Below, in pieces: positions 14,607 to 28,242 of a stretch of 64,000 nt of DNA. A program made the translations under genes and the position numbers. The notes under the pieces were generated by a model that made no database searches, was not told the origin of the DNA, and was given only the letters and a program-made list of their open reading frames with translations. This stretch comes from Thiohalospira halophila DSM 15071 (GTDB taxonomy: Bacteria; Pseudomonadota; Gammaproteobacteria; Thiohalospirales; Thiohalospiraceae): the NCBI RefSeq assembly GCF_900112605.1, contig NZ_FOMJ01000008.1, positions 15,001 to 79,000 on the forward strand. The letters run 5' to 3'. The stretch's first letter is position 1. Every line of letters begins with the position of its first letter.

Positions 14607-16106
14607 TCAGTCCTCCGTCATGGGGCGGAAGCGGCGCAGCTCCAGCAGGCGGTAGCCGGTGTAGCTGCCCAGCAGCAGGATCAGCCCCAGGAGGGCAAGC
14701 TGCAGCTCCGGGAAGTTGAAGGTCAGGTGGCGTACCCAGGGGTTGTCCATGGCCAGATAGGCCAGCACCGCGGTGAGCAGGCTCCCGCCGCCCTGGGCCA
14801 GCACCTCGCGACCGCCCTCCTCCTCCCAGAGGACGGACATCCGTTCGATGGTCCAGGCCAGGATGATGATGGGGAAGAAGGTGATGGTCATGGCCTGATT
14901 CAGCCCCAGGCGCCAGGCGAGCACCGAGAAGAGGGCCATGATGGCGATGACGGTGATGATGACCGCCGATACCCGGGCCACCAGCAGCAGGTTCAGCCGC
15001 GACAGCCAGCCGCGGATGAGCAGCCCCGTGGCCACCACCAGGGTAAAGGCGATGAGGCCGGTGGTCAGGGACATGCGCATGAAGGCCAGGGCGATGAGGA
15101 CCGGCATGAAGGTCCCCGAGGTCCGGATCCCCACCAGGACCCGGAGGAGGACCACCACCAGCGCCCCCACCGGGATGAGCAGCAGCGTCTTGAACAGCGC
15201 CTGCTCCTCCAGGGGCAGGGCGTGGATGGTGAGATCCAGCACCCCCGTGTCCCCCAGGTGGTTGCGCACCGCCAGCGCCGCCGGCTCCTGGTGGCGCAGC
15301 ATGGAGAAGTGGACCCGGGAGTTCTCGCCCCCCTCCACGGTGAGGACCGCGTCGCCCCCGCGCTCCCAGAGCAGCAGGTTCTCCGGCCGGCCCCACTCCC
15401 CGGTGGCCGGGTCGAAGAGGACGACGCCGTCGTCGGCGTGGACCTCCAGCCACGGCTCCAGGCTCTGGCGGCGCCGACCATCCTCCAGCCGCAGGCCGTG
15501 AACCACTCGCGCCCCGATCCCGGCATCGGCGAGCAGCCGCACCAGCAGCTCGGGGCGGGAATGGCTGGTCTCCAGCAGCCGTTCGCTCTGCCCCGAGCCC
15601 TCGCTGAAGGTCGCGATGAGCTGCCGGGCCAGACTGACGGCGTCGGCCGAGCGCGCCCGGGCCCGCTCCACGATGGCCCGGGCCGCCTCCTCGTTGGGGG
15701 GCTCCCAGAGGCTCGGATCCGCCTCCACCGGTTCCACCGGCGGGTCCACCGCCCCCGGCGCCGCCATGAGCTGGACGGAATAGTAGAGGTGTTGCTCTCC
15801 CCGGGCCTCGCGCACCGTCCACAGGGCGCGACGGCCGCCCTCCCCGGGCCGGTCCAGGCCGTAGCCGGAGGAGGCGGTATGCTCGGAGATCCGGCGGAAT
15901 CCGGCCTGCTGCTCCGGCAGTGCCAGCGAGGCGCGCACCGGCCCGCCGGTGGCGGTGAAGCGCACCTGCGCCTCCACCTCCCAGATGGCGCGCTGCTCTC
16001 CCGGCTTGAGGGGGACCCCCAGCTCCAGGGCGCGCCAGGCCATGGCCGCCAGCCCGGCGACCAGCAGCAGCGCCACCACGACGAAGAAGGGTCCGCGCCC
16101 GGCCAC
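14607..16106 (-). CDS. Inactive-transglutaminase / seven-TM membrane protein (UUP1 family)
   Basis: Membrane protein of 499 residues and unknown role. It has an N-terminal anchor (about 7-22), a large periplasmic region that includes a transglutaminase-like fold (about 190-290) without a recognisable Cys-His-Asp triad, and a C-terminal block of about seven transmembrane segments (from about 305), ending GYRLLELRRFRPM. It starts with GTG 2 bases after the retropepsin-like gene and ends 4 bases before the ATP-grasp gene, so the three are one operon. Related proteins in this operon type are thought to hold the ligase product or partner at the membrane. Confidence 0.85.
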   Translation of the reverse strand: MAGRGPFFVVVALLLVAGLAAMAWRALELGVPLKPGEQRAIWEVEAQVRFTATGGPVRASLALPEQQAGFRRISEHTASSGYGLDRPGEGGRRALWTVREARGEQHLYYSVQLMAAPGAVDPPVEPVEADPSLWEPPNEEAARAIVERARARSADAVSLARQLIATFSEGSGQSERLLETSHSRPELLVRLLADAGIGARVVHGLRLEDGRRRQSLEPWLEVHADDGVVLFDPATGEWGRPENLLLWERGGDAVLTVEGGENSRVHFSMLRHQEPAALAVRNHLGDTGVLDLTIHALPLEEQALFKTLLLIPVGALVVVLLRVLVGIRTSGTFMPVLIALAFMRMSLTTGLIAFTLVVATGLLIRGWLSRLNLLLVARVSAVIITVIAIMALFSVLAWRLGLNQAMTITFFPIIILAWTIERMSVLWEEEGGREVLAQGGGSLLTAVLAYLAMDNPWVRHLTFNFPELQLALLGLILLLGSYTGYRLLELRRFRPMTED

Positions 16107-19912: not shown

Positions 19913-20968
19913 ATGACCGACGATCTTCGCACCCGGCTCGCCAACCCGGATGACCCGGTCCTCTGCGCCGGCGGCTACCTCTTCGAACTGGAACGCCGCG
20001 GCTACCTCACCGCAGGCTCCTTCGTTCCCGAGGTCGCCCTGGAACACCCGGAGGTCCTCAAGCAGGTCTACCGCGAGTTCGTCCGGGCCGGCTCCGACGT
20101 CATCGAGGCCTTCACCTACAACGCCCACCGGGAGAAGATGCGGCTCATCGGCAAGGAGGAGCTGCTGGAGCCGCTAAACCGGAGCGCCCTGCGCACCGCC
20201 CGGGAGGTCGCCGCCGAGGGCTGGGATCGCCCCCCGCTGGTGGCCGGCAACATCTCCAACACCAACATCTACGACCCCGAGGACCCCGCCACCGCCGACC
20301 AGGTCCGCGCCATGTATACCGAGATGGTCGGCTGGGCGAAGGAAGAGGGGGTCGACTTCATCCTCGCCGAGACCCTCTACTACCGCGGCGAGGCCGAGAT
20401 CGCCATGGAGGTGATCCGCGACGCTGACCTGCCGGCGGTGATCACCTTCGGCGTCTTCGCCGACGGCCGCCTGCGCGACGGCGACGACCCGGCCACCGCG
20501 GCCGCCGCCCTGGAGGCCGCCGGGGCCGACGTGGTGGGGCTCAACTGCTTTCGCGGGCCGGCCACCATGCTCCCCTACCTGGAGGCCATCCGCGCCGCCG
20601 TCTCCATCCCGGTGGCCGGCCTGGCGGTGCCCTACCGCACCAGCCCCAACGAACCCACCTTCTTCAACATGCACGACCACTGCTGCTCCGTGCACCTGGA
20701 GGAGGGCCGGACCTTCCCCACCGACCTGGAGCCCTTCCTCTGCAACCGCCACGAGGTGGCCGACTACGCCCGGCGCGCCCGGGCCATCGGCGTCGACTAC
20801 CTGGGCCTGTGCTGCGGCAACGCCCCCCACTACATGCGCGCCCTGGCCGAGGCCGTGGGCCGCACCCCGCCGGCCTCGCGCTACAGCCCGGAGATGGACA
20901 AGCACTTCCTCTTCGGCACCGACCCGAGCCTCAAGCGCCACAATCGGGATTTCGCCGACAAGGCCTGA
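19913..20968 (+). CDS. Homocysteine S-methyltransferase, betaine-dependent type (BHMT-like)
   Basis: Predicted to move a methyl group to homocysteine, making methionine. The 351-residue TIM barrel opens with AGGYLFELERRGYLTAG and EFVRAGSDVIEAFTY, which follow animal BHMT closely. The three zinc cysteines are C212 (GLNC) and C300-C301 (LCCGN), the same spacing as in human BHMT. Use of glycine betaine as donor is therefore likely, and would suit a halophile that keeps betaine as a compatible solute, but a different donor cannot be excluded. AGGAG precedes the ATG. No riboswitch was recognised in the 105-base gap from hemL. Confidence 0.82.
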   Translation: MTDDLRTRLANPDDPVLCAGGYLFELERRGYLTAGSFVPEVALEHPEVLKQVYREFVRAGSDVIEAFTYNAHREKMRLIGKEELLEPLNRSALRTAREVAAEGWDRPPLVAGNISNTNIYDPEDPATADQVRAMYTEMVGWAKEEGVDFILAETLYYRGEAEIAMEVIRDADLPAVITFGVFADGRLRDGDDPATAAAALEAAGADVVGLNCFRGPATMLPYLEAIRAAVSIPVAGLAVPYRTSPNEPTFFNMHDHCCSVHLEEGRTFPTDLEPFLCNRHEVADYARRARAIGVDYLGLCCGNAPHYMRALAEAVGRTPPASRYSPEMDKHFLFGTDPSLKRHNRDFADKA

Positions 20969-20980
20969 GACTCGGGGCGG

Positions 20981-21027
20981 CCGTACCGGGGCTACTACTG
21001 GAAAGTTTGGCAACAATTCCGGTACGG
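20981..21027. repeat. 9-bp inverted repeat flanking the -35 of the AbgT promoter
   Basis: CCGTACCGG at 20981-20989 and its exact reverse complement CCGGTACGG at 21019-21027. The second arm sits in the spacer of the promoter and the first is upstream of the -35. This is a good candidate operator, or less likely the loop of a terminator for the upstream gene. Confidence 0.6.
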
Positions 21028-21034
21028 TTATAGT
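21007..21034 (+). promoter_or_regulatory. Sigma70-like promoter of the AbgT/regulator operon
   Basis: TTGGCA at 21007-21012, 16-base spacer, TATAGT at 21029-21034. It would give a leader of about 133 bases before the AbgT-family ATG. Confidence 0.65.
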
Positions 21035-21173
21035 CAGATCCTGAACAGGGCCGACCCGCGGCCCTATCGAGGACGCAGCGCCATGGAAGCCCTCCGGCTC
21101 CGGAAAAGGGACTCGGGAACCCACAGTCGGCGTCGCATTCGGTCTGCTCCCGACACGCGCCAAGGAGCTACCG

Positions 21174-22697
21174 ATGGCCGTTGAGGCCTCCCCGCGCTGG
21201 CTGGATCGGCTGGAGCGGGCGGGCAACCGGCTCCCCGAGCCCATGACCCTGTTCGCCCTCGCTCTGGTGGCGATCCTGATGATCAGCCACCTGGCCGAGC
21301 TGGCCGGCCTCGCCCTCCCCCATCCCCGCGGCGAGAGTACCATCCGGGCCCGCAGCCTCCTGGACAGCGACGGCGTCTGGTGGCTGACCAGCCACCTGGT
21401 GGAGAACTTCGTCGAATTCCGCCCCCTGGGCCTGGTCCTGGTGGCCATGCTCGGCATGGGCCTCGCCGAGCGCAGCGGCCTCTTCGCCGCCGCCTTTCGT
21501 CGCGCCATGCGCCGCCTGCCGGCGCGCCTGCTCACCCCCGGCGTGCTGGTCCTCGGCATCCTCATGGCCGCCGACCCCGGCTACATCATCCTGCCGCCGC
21601 TGGCCGCGCTGCTCTTCGCCGCGGCCGGGCGACCACCCCTGGCCGGCCTGGCGGCGGCCGCCGCCGGCGTGGCCGCCGGGTTCAGCGCCAACTACGTCGT
21701 CACCTTCCTGGATGCCATGCTGGCCGGCCTCACCGAGACGGCCGCCCATCTCATTGCCCCGGACTACGCCGTCTACATCACCGCCAACTGGTACTTCATG
21801 GCCGCCTCGGCGGTGATCCTCCCGCTGGTGGGCTGGTGGGTCACCAGTCGCTGGGTGGAGCCGCGCCTGGAGGGCCCGGGATCCGCGGCGGAGGAGGAGG
21901 ATGGCGCCGCCATCGATACCGCGGACGAGGGCGAGAACCCGGAGCGCGGCCTGCGCTGGGCGCGCCGGACCCTGGCGCTGACCGTGGCGGCCCTGGTGGC
22001 CGCCAGCACCCTCCCCGGCGCCCCGCTGGCCGGCACCGGCGAGGCGGGACCGCGCTGGATGGAGGCGCTGGTCCCCATGATGCTGCTGGTCTTCGCCCTG
22101 CCGGGACTCGCCTACGGCCTGGGGGCCGGCACCATCCGCTCCGACCGGGACGTGGCGAACATGCTCCACGAGACCATGGCACTCATGGGGTCCTACATCG
22201 TTCTGGCCTTCTTCGCCGCCCAGATGATCGCCGCCTTCGACCACTCCCGCCTGGGGACCCTGCTGGCCATCGGCGGGGGGGAGCTACTGGCCGGTATCGG
22301 GCTGCCGGCGACGCTGTTGATGATGGGGATGGCCGTAACCGCCATGGTCCTCAACCTCTTCATCGGCTCCGCCTCCGCCAAGTACGCCCTGCTCGCCCCG
22401 GTGTTCGTCCCCATGTTCATGCAGGCCGGGATCAGCCCCGAACTCACCCAGGCCGCCTACCGGGTGGGGGATTCGGTGACCAACGCCATCACCCCCATGA
22501 ACCCCTACCTGGTGGTCATCCTCACCTTCCTCCGGCGCTGGCGACCCGACGCCGGGCTGGGCACCCTCATGGCCCTGCAGCTCCCCTACAGCCTCGCCTT
22601 TGCCGTTGTCTGGCTGGCGCTGCTGGCGGGCTGGATCGCCCTGGGCTGGCCCCTGGGGCCCGGCGCCGGCCTCACCTTCGAGGGAGGCGGGGGTTGA
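21174..22697 (+). CDS. AbgT-family transporter
   Basis: Inner-membrane carrier of 507 residues in the family of AbgT (p-aminobenzoyl-glutamate uptake) and MtrF/YdaH (drug and sulfonamide export). It has about eleven hydrophobic segments, an acidic cytoplasmic loop (about 235-265), and the family C-terminal motifs NLFIGSASAKYALLAPVFVPM and GDSVTNAITPMNPYLVVIL. The substrate and direction cannot be told. The ATG follows AAGGAG at good spacing. Its TGA overlaps the TTG start of the large regulator, so the two are translated together. Confidence 0.9.
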   Translation: MAVEASPRWLDRLERAGNRLPEPMTLFALALVAILMISHLAELAGLALPHPRGESTIRARSLLDSDGVWWLTSHLVENFVEFRPLGLVLVAMLGMGLAERSGLFAAAFRRAMRRLPARLLTPGVLVLGILMAADPGYIILPPLAALLFAAAGRPPLAGLAAAAAGVAAGFSANYVVTFLDAMLAGLTETAAHLIAPDYAVYITANWYFMAASAVILPLVGWWVTSRWVEPRLEGPGSAAEEEDGAAIDTADEGENPERGLRWARRTLALTVAALVAASTLPGAPLAGTGEAGPRWMEALVPMMLLVFALPGLAYGLGAGTIRSDRDVANMLHETMALMGSYIVLAFFAAQMIAAFDHSRLGTLLAIGGGELLAGIGLPATLLMMGMAVTAMVLNLFIGSASAKYALLAPVFVPMFMQAGISPELTQAAYRVGDSVTNAITPMNPYLVVILTFLRRWRPDAGLGTLMALQLPYSLAFAVVWLALLAGWIALGWPLGPGAGLTFEGGGG

Positions 22698-25600
22698 GCG
22701 CCGCCCTGGAGGTGACCCTGCTGGGTCCGCCGCGCCTCCGCCCCGCGGTGCTGGGACCGGGGCACCCTCTGGCGCTCCTGGCGCTGCTCCTCGTCGATGG
22801 CGAGGTCACTCGCGAGGGCGCCGCCACCCTCCTCTGGCCGGAGAGCCGCCAGCCCCGGAGCGACCTGCGCCAGGCCCTGCACCGCCTCCGCCACGCCCTG
22901 CCGAAGGCCGGGGTGGATCCCGTTCTGGCCGACCGCAACCGGCTGCAGCTCCATCCGGAGTATTCCCTGGCCAGTGACGTCACGACCTTCCTCGCCGCCG
23001 TCCGCGCCGGAGGCGAGGCGGAGCCAGCGACGCTCCGCCGCGGCGTAGAGGCCTACGGCGGTCCCCTCCTGGATGGCTTCAAGTCCGGCCCTCACGGCTC
23101 CTTCGAGGAGTGGCTGGAGGCCCGCCGGACCTGGTTCCGGGAGCAGGCGCGCCTGCTCCATCTGCGCCTGGCGCACCGGGAGCTGGCCGAGGGCAACCGC
23201 GAGGCCGCCGTGCGTACCGCGGCCGCCTTTATCAGTCGGGAGCCCGACGACGCCGTGGGCCGCCGCCAGCTCGACGAGGTCCTCCACGCCAGCGACCGCT
23301 CCGACGCCCCCGGCCCGGAAGCCGCCTCGGCCGGCCTGCAGCAGCGCCACCTGGTCGTGGTCTGCTGCGATCCCTGCCCACCCGATACCGCCAACGAGGA
23401 GGCGCTGGTGGCAGCCATAACCCGGCTTCGCCAGCTCTGCCGGAGCAACCTGGAGGCCCGGGAAGGCCGTGTCGAGGCCGGACCGGACGGGGTGCTCTAC
23501 GGCTATTTCGGCCTCCCGCCCCGGGCCAGCCGCGCCACCACCGATGCCCTCACCGCCGCCACCACGCTCCTCGCCGCCGACGGCGAGGCACCGCCGGTGC
23601 GCGTCGGCCTCCACGCCGGGCGCGCCCTGACTGCCGGCAGCGGCCACCCGGACTTCCTGGGCAGTGTGGTCCGTCGGGCGCGACTGGCCGCCATGGCCGC
23701 GCCGGTGGGAGAACTCCGCCTCACCCAGGCCGCCGAGACAGCACTCCCCCCGGGCTGGCCTTCCCACCTCACCCCGGAAACCGACCCGGCCGGCTCCCTC
23801 TTCACGACCACCGCGCCGGCGCTTTCCGAGGCCCGCCACACCCCACTGGTAGGCCGGCGCCGGGAGCGGGCCCAGCTTCTGGCGGCCGTCCGGAAGCTGC
23901 GCTACAGGCGGGGGGACGCCTGTCTGCTGCGAGGCGAGGCCGGTATCGGCAAGAGCCGGCTGGCGGCCGCCGTGCGCGCCCGTACGGCCCAGTGGATCGG
24001 GACCGCCACCGTGGGCAGCGAGGGCCCGGAGACCGATCGCCCCCTGGAACCCTTCCTGCAGTTCGTGGAACAGCTCGCGGCACTCCACCCCGAGCAGCCG
24101 CGGACAGAGCGCCGCCGGCGGCTGGAAGACGCCCTGGCGAAGGTCGAGATCGCGGAGGCCGAGGGCGAGGTAGTCCTGCGACTGCTACTGGAGCCGCCAC
24201 GGGCCGATGACGAACTACCCGGCGAGGCCCACCGCGCCCTGGCGGCCCTGGTCCTGGCGCGGGCGGCTGTCACCCCCCTGATGCTGGTGGTTGAAGACAT
24301 CCACGTCGCCGATACCTCCAGCCGTCGAGTCCTGGTCGAGCTGGCACGCCACGCGCCGGACCATCCCCTCCTGCTCATCGCCACCGGCCGGCCGGAGAGC
24401 GTCCCCGTGGCGGGGCTGCACCCGCTGGATCTCGCCCCGCTGGGAGCGGCGGAGGTCGAGGCCATCATCGCCGGCACGGCCCCCTCTCCGCTGGACCAGG
24501 CGAGCAGCCAGGCGCTGGCCCGGATGAGCGAGGGGATACCGCTCTTCGCCGAGGAGCTGGCCCGAGCCGGCGGACCCGACGGAGAGGGCGGCTCGCCACC
24601 GAGCCTGGAGCAGCTCGCCACCGCCCGGCTGGACGCCGCCGGCCGCGCCGCGCGCACGGCGCGGCTGCTGGCCCTGGTGGGACGCGAGGCCACCGCCGGC
24701 TTCCTGGCCTGGCTGGATGAGCGCTCCATGGACGAGACCACCGCCGACCTCCAGTGGCTGGAGGCGGACGACCTGGTCCTGCGCCGCCCCCGACGCGAAG
24801 GGGTCTTCTACCGCATCCGGCACGCCCTCCTGGAACAGGCCTTCTACCACTCCCTCCCCCCCGGGGAGGCGGCCCGGCTCCACCGCCGGCTGGCCCGGGG
24901 TGTCGAGACCGATTATCCCACCGAGGCCGAGGCCCGCCCGGCCTGGCTCGCCGACCATCACCGCCGCGCCGGTCAGCCGGCCGCCGCGACTCGCCGCTAT
25001 CTGGATGCCGCCCGTCAGGCCGGCCGCTTCGGCGCCCACGAGGCGGCGACCAGCGCCCGGGAGCAGGCCCGAGCCGCCATCGCCGAACTCCCGGTGGGGT
25101 CCGAGCGCGAGGCCCTGGTCCACGAGCTGGAGCAGCTTACCGCCCTCCAGGGACTGGTGGTCGCCGGTCACGCCACCACCCGCTCCGCCCTGGAGCAACT
25201 GATCCCAGTGGACCCGGAGGCCGACTTCGACGCCGCCCTGGCCCGCATCATCGGCGGCGTCCACGCCACGCCGTGGGAGGCCCTCCTCCCCCGTACGGAG
25301 GAGCTGGTAGCCATTGCCCGAGCGCGCGGCGAGACCGGACGACTGCATACCGCCCGCCACCTGCTGGGCTTCATCGCCAACTATACCGGCCACCTGCCCC
25401 TGGCCCTGGAGCAGTTCCGGGCGCTGGTGGACGAGGGCGAGACGACCAGTGCCCCGGAGACGCTGCTGCAGGCCTACAACGGTCCGCCCCGGCCGGTGGA
25501 GATCGCCTACCTCGCCCTGCTCGAGCTTGGCCAGGGCCGGGCCGAGCGCTCCCGTCGGCTCCGGGACGAGGCCCTCGCGGCGGCCCGCGCCCACGGCAGC

Positions 25601-26242
25601 AGCAACCTCCTGGCTCACGCACTGGTGCTCATGGCCGCCCGGGCCCGCCACGACCTCGCACCGGAAGAGGCACTGGTCCTGGCCGAGGAGGCCATCCGCC
25701 TCAGCCGCGAGGAGGGGCTGCGCACCGCCCGCCTCATCGCCGGCGCCTGCGCCCGGTGGGCACGGTCCCGGCTAGGCTGGCCAGCGGCGGTGGACCGCAT
25801 GGACCGCGCCCTGGCCGCCGAGGGGGGCAATGCCGCCACCTTCGCCCGGAGCACCTACCTCGTCGCGGCGCTGGGGGCCCAGGGCCGGGATGGCGCCGCC
25901 ATCGGGCTCGCCCGCCGTCTGTGTCGCGGCCCGGAGCGCCCCCACGTCCCCACCAGCGCTCACCCCCTGGTAGCGCTGCAGCTCGGTCTGAGCCTGGAAA
26001 GCTGCGGTCATCCGCGGCCCGCCCGGCGGGCACTGCATGCCGGCCTGGAGCAGGCCCGGGCCAACCGTAACCCCCTCCAGATCGCCCGCTGCGCCGCAGC
26101 GCTGGCCGATCTCCAGGCGGCCGCCGGCGAGACCGCCACCGCGGCCATCACCCTGCGGGCGGCGGTCGCCGAACTCCCGCCAGAGGCCGATGCCGAGGCC
26201 ATCACCGCCCTGCGCCAGCGCGCAGGGCAGACCGCAGCGTAA
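22694..26242 (+). CDS. Large regulator: winged helix, BTAD, cyclase-like domain, STAND ATPase, TPR
   Basis: Predicted transcription regulator of 1182 residues. In order: a SARP-type winged helix (about 5-90, REGAATLLWPESRQPRSDLRQALHRLR), a bacterial transcriptional activator domain (about 97-213), a class III cyclase-homology domain (about 230-370, PPVRVGLHAG), a STAND-type ATPase with Walker A GEAGIGKS (about 415-422) and Walker B LVVEDIHVAD (about 531-540), and a long TPR region to the end. The cyclase domain lacks the usual Asn (VRRARL in place of NLAARL), so it probably only binds or senses. The TTG at 22694 follows GGGAGG and overlaps the AbgT stop as TTGA. The likely target is the operon itself. 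Confidence 0.85.
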   Translation: MSAALEVTLLGPPRLRPAVLGPGHPLALLALLLVDGEVTREGAATLLWPESRQPRSDLRQALHRLRHALPKAGVDPVLADRNRLQLHPEYSLASDVTTFLAAVRAGGEAEPATLRRGVEAYGGPLLDGFKSGPHGSFEEWLEARRTWFREQARLLHLRLAHRELAEGNREAAVRTAAAFISREPDDAVGRRQLDEVLHASDRSDAPGPEAASAGLQQRHLVVVCCDPCPPDTANEEALVAAITRLRQLCRSNLEAREGRVEAGPDGVLYGYFGLPPRASRATTDALTAATTLLAADGEAPPVRVGLHAGRALTAGSGHPDFLGSVVRRARLAAMAAPVGELRLTQAAETALPPGWPSHLTPETDPAGSLFTTTAPALSEARHTPLVGRRRERAQLLAAVRKLRYRRGDACLLRGEAGIGKSRLAAAVRARTAQWIGTATVGSEGPETDRPLEPFLQFVEQLAALHPEQPRTERRRRLEDALAKVEIAEAEGEVVLRLLLEPPRADDELPGEAHRALAALVLARAAVTPLMLVVEDIHVADTSSRRVLVELARHAPDHPLLLIATGRPESVPVAGLHPLDLAPLGAAEVEAIIAGTAPSPLDQASSQALARMSEGIPLFAEELARAGGPDGEGGSPPSLEQLATARLDAAGRAARTARLLALVGREATAGFLAWLDERSMDETTADLQWLEADDLVLRRPRREGVFYRIRHALLEQAFYHSLPPGEAARLHRRLARGVETDYPTEAEARPAWLADHHRRAGQPAAATRRYLDAARQAGRFGAHEAATSAREQARAAIAELPVGSEREALVHELEQLTALQGLVVAGHATTRSALEQLIPVDPEADFDAALARIIGGVHATPWEALLPRTEELVAIARARGETGRLHTARHLLGFIANYTGHLPLALEQFRALVDEGETTSAPETLLQAYNGPPRPVEIAYLALLELGQGRAERSRRLRDEALAAARAHGSSNLLAHALVLMAARARHDLAPEEALVLAEEAIRLSREEGLRTARLIAGACARWARSRLGWPAAVDRMDRALAAEGGNAATFARSTYLVAALGAQGRDGAAIGLARRLCRGPERPHVPTSAHPLVALQLGLSLESCGHPRPARRALHAGLEQARANRNPLQIARCAAALADLQAAAGETATAAITLRAAVAELPPEADAEAITALRQRAGQTAA

Positions 26243-26325
26243 CCTTCCCCGCCCACCGCGGCGCCATGTAGACTGGCCGGATCATCCAGGCCGCCCACAG
26301 CGGCCCCAGCCGACCGGAAGCCATC

Positions 26326-28242
26326 GTGCCCCTGCTGACCCTCGACCACATCACCCTCAATCTGGGTAAACCGCCGCTCATCGACGACGTCAGCCTCACC
26401 GTGGAGCGGGGCGAACGCCTCTGCCTGGTGGGCCGCAACGGCGCCGGCAAATCGACCCTGCTCAAGATCGTCGCCGGCGACGTGGAGGCGGACGAGGGCC
26501 AGGTCCGGGTGGACGGCGGCCGGGTGGCCACGCTGCCCCAGGATGTCCCCGAGGGGACCGAGGGCTCGGTCTACCACGTGGTCGCCGAGGGGCTGGGCGA
26601 GACCGGGGCGCTGGTGGAGCGCTACCACGCCCTCACCGAGGTCATGGCCGAGGGGGGCGAGATCGACTTCGACGAGCTCCAGCGGGTCCAGCAGGGCATC
26701 GACGCCGCCGACGGCTGGAACCTGCAGCAGCGGGTGGAGAGCGTCATCACCCACCTGGACCTGCCGGCGGAGGCGGAGATCAACAGCCTCTCCGGCGGTC
26801 TCAAGCGCCGCGTGCTCCTCGGCCAGGCGCTCGTCCAGCAGCCCGACCTGCTGCTGCTGGACGAGCCCACCAACCACCTGGACATCGACGCCATCGACTG
26901 GCTGGAGTCCTACCTCAAGGAGTGGTCCGGGGCGCTGGTCTTCATCACCCACGACCGGGCCTTCCTGCGCGCCCTGGCCACCCGGATCGTGGAGCTGGAC
27001 CGCGGCAAGATCCGCGACTATCCCGGCGACTACGACACCTACCTGGAGCGCCGCGAGCAGGAACTGGCCGCCGAGGAGAAGGCCCAGGCGGAATTCGACA
27101 AGCGGCTGGCCAAGGAGGAGGCGTGGATCCGCACCGGGATCAAGGCCCGCCGCACCCGCAACCAGGGCCGGGTGAAGGAGCTCCAGCGCATGCGCGCCGA
27201 GCGCGCCGAACGCCGCCACCAGAGCGGCACGGCGAAGGTCACCGTCCAGGAGGCCCAGCGCACCGGCAAGCTGGTGGTGGAGGCCGAGGGCGTGGGCTTC
27301 GCCTACCCGGACGGCAAGCGCGTCATCCAGGACCTGGACGCCACCATCATGCGCGGCGACAAGGTCGGCATCATCGGCCCCAACGGCGTGGGCAAGACCA
27401 CCCTGCTACGGCTACTGCTGGGCCAGCTGGAGCCCACCGAGGGGCGCATCCGCCGGGGAACCAACCTGGAGGTCGCCTACTTCGACCAGCACCGGGCCGC
27501 CCTGGACCCCGATGCCACGGTCCAGGACAACGTCGCCGGCGGCCGGGACAAGGTGACCATCAACGGGGCCGAGCGCCACGTCATCAGCTACCTCCAGGAC
27601 TTCCTCTTTGCCCCGGAGCGCGCCCGGCAGCCGGTGCGCAGCCTCTCCGGCGGCGAGCGCAACCGTCTGCTGCTGGCGCGGCTGTTCACCCAGCCGGCCA
27701 ATGTCCTGGTCCTCGACGAGCCCACCAACGACCTGGACGCCGATACCCTGGAGATGCTCGAGGCGCGGGTGGTCGAATTCGGCGGCACCGTGTTGCTGGT
27801 GAGCCACGACCGCGCCTTCCTGGACAACGTCGTCACCTCCAGCATCGCCTACGACCACGACGGGATCTTCCGGGAGTACGTGGGCGGCTACTCCGACTGG
27901 CTTCGCCAGCGGCCGGAGCCGGCCCGGGCCGAGGCGGCGACCCCGGCCAGCCAGGCGGCGCCGCAACCGAAGGCGCAGGCCGCGGAGGCCGAGGCCGAAA
28001 AGGCGGCACCCAAGCGTCTCTCCTACCACGAACAGCGCGAACTCGAGGCACTACCGGCCCGGATCGAGGAGCTGGAGACCGAACAGGGGGCACTGGAGCA
28101 GCAGATGGGCGACCCCGAGTTCTATCAGCAGGAGGCCGAGACCATCCGCCAGGCCCAGGAGCGGCTGGCGGCGGTCCAGTCGGAGCTGGCCACCGCCTAC
28201 GAGCGGTGGGAGGAGCTGGAGGCGCGCCGCGACATCCGCTAA
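26326..28242 (+). CDS. uup: ABC-F ATPase, Uup type
   Basis: Soluble tandem ATPase of 638 residues that acts on ribosomes or, for Uup, in genome stability and DNA-structure handling. It has two ABC domains with Walker A motifs GRNGAGKST (about 36-44) and GPNGVGKTT (about 351-359), signatures LSGGLKRRV and LSGGERNRL, and the ABC-F linker between them (about 220-310). The C-terminal coiled coil (about 560-635) after an Ala/Glu-rich hinge is the mark of Uup over EttA or YheS. It starts with GTG at 26326 (GGAAG upstream), 83 bases after the regulator gene. Confidence 0.9.
   Translation: MPLLTLDHITLNLGKPPLIDDVSLTVERGERLCLVGRNGAGKSTLLKIVAGDVEADEGQVRVDGGRVATLPQDVPEGTEGSVYHVVAEGLGETGALVERYHALTEVMAEGGEIDFDELQRVQQGIDAADGWNLQQRVESVITHLDLPAEAEINSLSGGLKRRVLLGQALVQQPDLLLLDEPTNHLDIDAIDWLESYLKEWSGALVFITHDRAFLRALATRIVELDRGKIRDYPGDYDTYLERREQELAAEEKAQAEFDKRLAKEEAWIRTGIKARRTRNQGRVKELQRMRAERAERRHQSGTAKVTVQEAQRTGKLVVEAEGVGFAYPDGKRVIQDLDATIMRGDKVGIIGPNGVGKTTLLRLLLGQLEPTEGRIRRGTNLEVAYFDQHRAALDPDATVQDNVAGGRDKVTINGAERHVISYLQDFLFAPERARQPVRSLSGGERNRLLLARLFTQPANVLVLDEPTNDLDADTLEMLEARVVEFGGTVLLVSHDRAFLDNVVTSSIAYDHDGIFREYVGGYSDWLRQRPEPARAEAATPASQAAPQPKAQAAEAEAEKAAPKRLSYHEQRELEALPARIEELETEQGALEQQMGDPEFYQQEAETIRQAQERLAAVQSELATAYERWEELEARRDIR

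Follow-up and report, generated by a model that had tools for sequence, protein, structure and literature searches.

We analyzed a gene pair of Thiohalospira halophila DSM 15071 that is located within a window of 64,000 nucleotides (the whole stretch of DNA that was analyzed; positions refer to it). The pair consists of an abgT gene (ATG 21174, TGA 22695-22697) and the gene of a large regulator, whose frame runs from TTG 22694-22696 to TAA 26240-26242. The abgT stop and the TTG start of the regulator overlap in the sequence TTGA. The features of the locus are listed in Table 1.

Table 1. Features of the abgT-regulator locus
Feature	Position	Strand	Basis
Inverted-repeat left arm CCGTACCGG, upstream of the -35; candidate operator	20981..20989	.	
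Sigma-70-like promoter TTGGCA-16-TATAGT (probable)	21007..21034	+	only match in 20900-26400
Inverted-repeat right arm CCGGTACGG, within the -35/-10 spacer	21019..21027	.	
Shine-Dalgarno AAGGAG of abgT	21162..21167	+	sequence
AbgT-family transporter, Tyr-type subfamily, 507 aa	21174..22697	+	Pfam, alignment, tree
Shine-Dalgarno GGGAGG of the regulator, within abgT, spacer of 6 to TTG	22682..22687	+	
BTAD / cyclase-like / STAND / helical-repeat regulator, 1182 aa	22694..26242	+	
Winged-helix DNA-binding domain, residues 1-94	22694..22975	+	family profile vs AfsR/EmbR; AlphaFold model
BTAD, residues about 96-203	22979..23302	+	Pfam on segment; family alignment
Cyclase-like domain, residues about 216-372, catalytic residues lost	23339..23809	+	profile, model, residue check
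NOD ATPase core (AAA_16), residues 384-562	23843..24379	+	Pfam, alignment
C-terminal helical-repeat (TPR-like) sensor region, residues about 749-1182	24938..26239	+	model, PDB match

Arrangement of the genes and the upstream region

The mechanical ORF list opened the regulator frame farther upstream (GTG 21380, 1620 aa). We regard TTG 22694 as the best-fitting start, since it is preceded by GGGAGG and marks the beginning of the family alignment, where the homologues open with the same LxVxLLG strand. An earlier note on this DNA had described an AbgT gene coupled to a 1182-residue regulator by a TTGA overlap, a TTG start with a good ribosome site, a winged-helix/BTAD/cyclase-like/STAND/TPR architecture and a putative regulatory region at 20981-21034. 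Both genes, the overlap and the site six bases before TTG were confirmed, the upstream region proved to be real and the architecture was recovered by Pfam, the family profile and an AlphaFold model.

Judged from the sequence, translational coupling of the transporter and the STAND regulator is well supported. A start/stop overlap as such is ordinary in this window, for which alone the base rate was taken: with a rough gene caller, 4 of 38 same-strand neighbours overlapped in this way. The abgT/regulator pair adds to these four, because the caller had fused it into one ORF.

Downstream of the regulator and on the same strand lies uup, after a gap of 83 bases (26243-26325). This gap showed no terminator-like site, thus uup may be on the same transcript. 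A frame of 33 codons (21083-21184), preceded by GAGGA, terminates inside the start of abgT and may be a chance frame or a leader peptide.

The promoter scan of 5.5 kb (20900-26400) yielded one match compared with 0.1 expected, and this is likely the promoter of an operon. It is overlapped by a perfect 9-bp inverted repeat, the two arms of which occur as a pair only once in the whole genome. An inverted repeat of such length with the same gap was obtained by chance in about 3.5% of Markov simulations. The single 9-mer had 55 genomic matches versus 140 for a reversed-pattern control; as the matches are not above the control, there is no sign of a regulon. Both arms together were not found near other regulator homologues. 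An operator shared with the two paralogues of the regulator in this genome was rejected, with no arm upstream of either even at one mismatch. A regulatory RNA in the leader was rejected as well, the folding energy being the same as that of shuffles (z 0.02).

Composition of the transporter and the regulator

The transporter matched Pfam ABG_transport (PF03806) over residues 8-499 (E 2e-168, 561 bits, gathering cut-off 27) and belongs to the AbgT family over its full length. Full-length homology to MtrF and YdaH (4r1i, 4r0c) was found with E values of about 1e-116 and 1e-110, respectively. The score for YdaH antimetabolite efflux in NCBIfam (TIGR00819) was 447.7 bits and lay below the cut-off of 753.55. 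The MtrF/YdaH core residues, which we take to be Asp193, Ser417, Trp420, Arg446, Asp449 and Pro457 in MtrF, were all kept except for Trp, which is Tyr in this transporter. According to the structure papers, this Trp (Trp420 in MtrF, Trp400 in YdaH) is said to be important. A tree built from 59 AbgT proteins placed the transporter in a clade of 15 members (support 100/100), 14 of which carry Tyr and one Phe at this position. It can be assigned to a well-supported Tyr-type AbgT subfamily apart from MtrF/YdaH.

Against Pfam, the whole regulator gave AAA_16 as the sole match (E 4.5e-18, residues 384-562). When the segment 22958-23338 was scanned alone, BTAD (PF03704) reached 29.3 bits (cut-off 22.1); in the alignment this domain lacks about 40 C-terminal residues relative to the homologues. 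No Pfam match was obtained for the winged helix on its own or, in the regulator itself, for TPR. Among 18 aligned family proteins, AAA_16 was detected in all, BTAD in 15, Trans_reg_C in 10 and Guanylate_cyc in five. The family profile matched AfsR (1.9e-29), EmbR (2.1e-24) and adenylate cyclases (to 2.1e-21) in the PDB. The AlphaFold model (mean pLDDT 82, pTM 0.60) contained a winged helix, BTAD helices, an alpha/beta cyclase-like domain, the NOD and a long helical array. A Foldseek search with the model returned the STAND/TPR protein 6mfv first, then Apaf-1 and CED-4, and also the cyclase 5oyh. Since the TM-scores were low (6mfv 0.27 by query length), these hits support the individual domains rather than similarity across the entire protein.

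Walker A (GEAGIGKS, 414-421) and Walker B (ED, 534-535) were both intact. With its NOD core, the Walker motifs and the C-terminal repeats predicted by the model, the protein classifies as a putative STAND ATPase, and a predicted OmpR-type winged helix followed by BTAD places it among the AfsR-like BTAD regulators.

Fold and profile of the cyclase-like domain match class III cyclases, as would be expected if it were active and the regulator signalled via cAMP. However, one of six catalytic residues is left (the first metal Asp), so that the domain falls outside the class III nucleotide cyclases as defined by two metal Asp, Lys/Asp for the base, Asn and Arg. Other residues stand in place of Lys, the second metal Asp, the base-specifying Asp, Asn and Arg; the complete set was present in no homologue of the alignment. 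With five of the six residues gone the domain should make no cAMP; an active cyclase was rejected on these residues and appears highly improbable. A role as anti-phage STAND (Avs) or in other defence was rejected too, with no PADLOC match at E 0.01.

The GC3 of the regulator gene was 0.88 compared with 0.94-0.97 in its neighbours, although its overall GC content is higher (75%). The low GC3 would fit a separate origin of the regulator.

Distribution of the pair and relatives of the regulator

The closest sample comprised 11 genomes of the same family, with the genus itself outside the set, and neither gene was found in any of them. By coordinates, a survey of 369 Gammaproteobacteria gave no adjacent pair outside the source genome. 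Five other genomes (G131, G177, G189, G251 and G373) had matches to both genes, which were located on separate contigs or at least about 0.9 Mb apart. An adjacent pair was also absent from 399 Pseudomonadota, the nearest matches being 36 kb apart (G491, N-terminal match of 28%). Because searches this broad score only a few candidates in each genome, the sequence flanking 59 other AbgT loci (up to 1.5 kb) was scanned directly with the regulator family profile, which detected one unrelated cyclase and no pair. Some genomes belong to more than one of the sets, which together hold more than 700 sampled genomes. Among these the pairing is known from the source genome alone. A conserved AbgT-STAND two-gene system was not found in them, and the conservation in relatives to which the earlier note had tied its proposal was not borne out.

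A second AbgT-STAND pair at locus L125 was rejected. The strong profile match there, upstream of AbgT, comes from the gene of a membrane-bound class III adenylate cyclase that has its catalytic residues but is without the BTAD/STAND parts. In an insertion-site test no empty site was readable at uup in the same-family genomes, because the gene upstream of uup varies among them; no close homologue of the gene upstream of abgT was found in these genomes. A GTDB-based contig collection gave one distant match (Paraburkholderia, 27%), and no plasmid relative covered 80% of the protein.

The neighbours of some 20 homologous regulators were all different, and most of these regulators were stand-alone genes. 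Two tandem paralogues were present in this genome on contig C5 (L070:9850-15887, minus strand). They encode 747 and 1237 aa, are 80 bases apart and precede the genes of a 230-aa protein and a CobW-like GTPase. The first paralogue terminates soon past the NOD and is without most of the repeat region. A membrane protein gene at 14607-16106 has a homologue (L074:1-666) about 4 kb from a regulator homologue of G131, possibly a remnant of common gene order or a coincidence.

Known systems and possible function

AfsR, the SARP-NOD-TPR activator of Streptomyces, has winged helix, BTAD, NOD and TPR in the same order and is matched by positions 3-267 of the family profile. In contrast to the regulator described here, which lies behind a transporter gene, it is without a cyclase-like domain and controls antibiotic genes. 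The TOMM kinase/cyclase fusion (TIGR03903) matched weakly (172.9 bits, cut-off 705.75) over residues 376-1070, leaving the N-terminal third uncovered. MalT of E. coli is a STAND activator with an ADP/ATP switch that controls maltodextrin uptake genes; unlike the regulator here it is without BTAD or cyclase-like domain, and it carries a LuxR-type C-terminal HTH. The DNA-binding part of GutR of B. subtilis is of another type than that of our regulator, and AbgR of E. coli is LysR-type.

The earlier note knew of no described STAND sense-and-transport arrangement. This has to be corrected, since in gutRBP the STAND activator GutR adjoins a transporter, as here, and is activated by the transported glucitol and ATP (PMC10936776, PMC3217849). 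The GutR system (gutB/gutP) differs from the AbgT pair in its H+/glucitol symporter family and its known ligand. E. coli abgRABT likewise combines an AbgT transporter with a locally encoded regulator (PMC6415869); there the hydrolase genes abgA/B are present, whereas none lies beside this abgT. In a literature search for AbgT with BTAD the exact combination was not found, and the AbgT-STAND combination is a single instance assembled from known families.

Most likely, the locus is either an operon with a STAND regulator possibly acting on that operon or a lineage-specific juxtaposition. We tentatively prefer one operon under local control by its own STAND regulator, although our confidence stays short of even. 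Local control is the leading guess because the regulator is presumably co-expressed with abgT and because a repeat lies at the promoter. The putative promoter would drive a single abgT-regulator operon, and ribosomes finishing abgT would go on to make the regulator. At rest the regulator would be ADP-bound and inactive, as AfsR and MalT are. A signal on the C-terminal repeats would let it take ATP and assemble, after which the winged helix would bind the promoter of its own operon, or DNA close to it, and change abgT transcription. The cyclase-like domain might be a non-enzymatic spacer or sensor. The switch is taken as the default because in MalT, GutR and AfsR it is triggered at the C-terminal repeats (PMC10936776, PMC6389857). 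The TTGA overlap, the sole regional promoter match upstream of abgT, the genome-unique repeat pair and the BTAD/AAA/STAND architecture with Walker motifs argue for local control, as do GutR and MalT as precedents for control of nearby transport genes. Against it stand the absence of the pair from all other sampled genomes, the unrelated neighbours of the homologues, the repeat arms missing near homologues and paralogues, and the GC3.

Next after local control ranks the possibility, somewhat unlikely in our view, that the regulator gene came to lie downstream of abgT in this lineage and uses the abgT transcript for its expression, with no functional tie to the transporter, as an orphan with targets elsewhere or none. 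The unconserved pair, both in the sampled genomes and at the other AbgT loci, would agree with this, as would the varied neighbours, the commonness of overlaps in the window and the atypical GC3. However, the intact frame of 1182 codons, the Walker motifs and the tight coupled start suggest that co-expression with abgT is maintained. AfsR-type regulators control distant gene clusters, and the regulator could be co-made with AbgT and control wider or different genes (folate, amino-acid, stress), with AbgT as one output or mere host transcript. The two paralogues elsewhere in the genome indicate that such regulators need not adjoin a transporter, but the number of 9-mer matches does not point to a regulon, and we consider this unlikely. 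The self-contained sense-and-transport unit of the earlier note goes further than local control. In our version of it, a BTAD-type STAND protein would sense the substrate of the Tyr-type AbgT pump by means of its inactive cyclase-like domain and its repeats and would activate its own operon via the repeat at 20981-21027. Coupling is supported and local control plausible, but the pair is unconserved in the sampled genomes, and the complete unit seems rather doubtful. If true, it would be the first case in which an AbgT transporter is controlled by a STAND protein.

If the regulator answers the AbgT substrate, its ligand would reveal the cargo of the uncharacterised Tyr-type subfamily. The locus would then be a compact model for target choice by the BTAD-STAND regulators of Gammaproteobacteria, which are mostly orphan-looking; as it stands, it is one lineage-specific gene arrangement. 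At the Tyr-type loci L011, L013, L051, L053 and L054 a DUF1820 gene, for which no match was found in this genome, often adjoins abgT. A metallophosphoesterase gene was also located beside some Tyr-type AbgT genes, forming a conserved neighbourhood.
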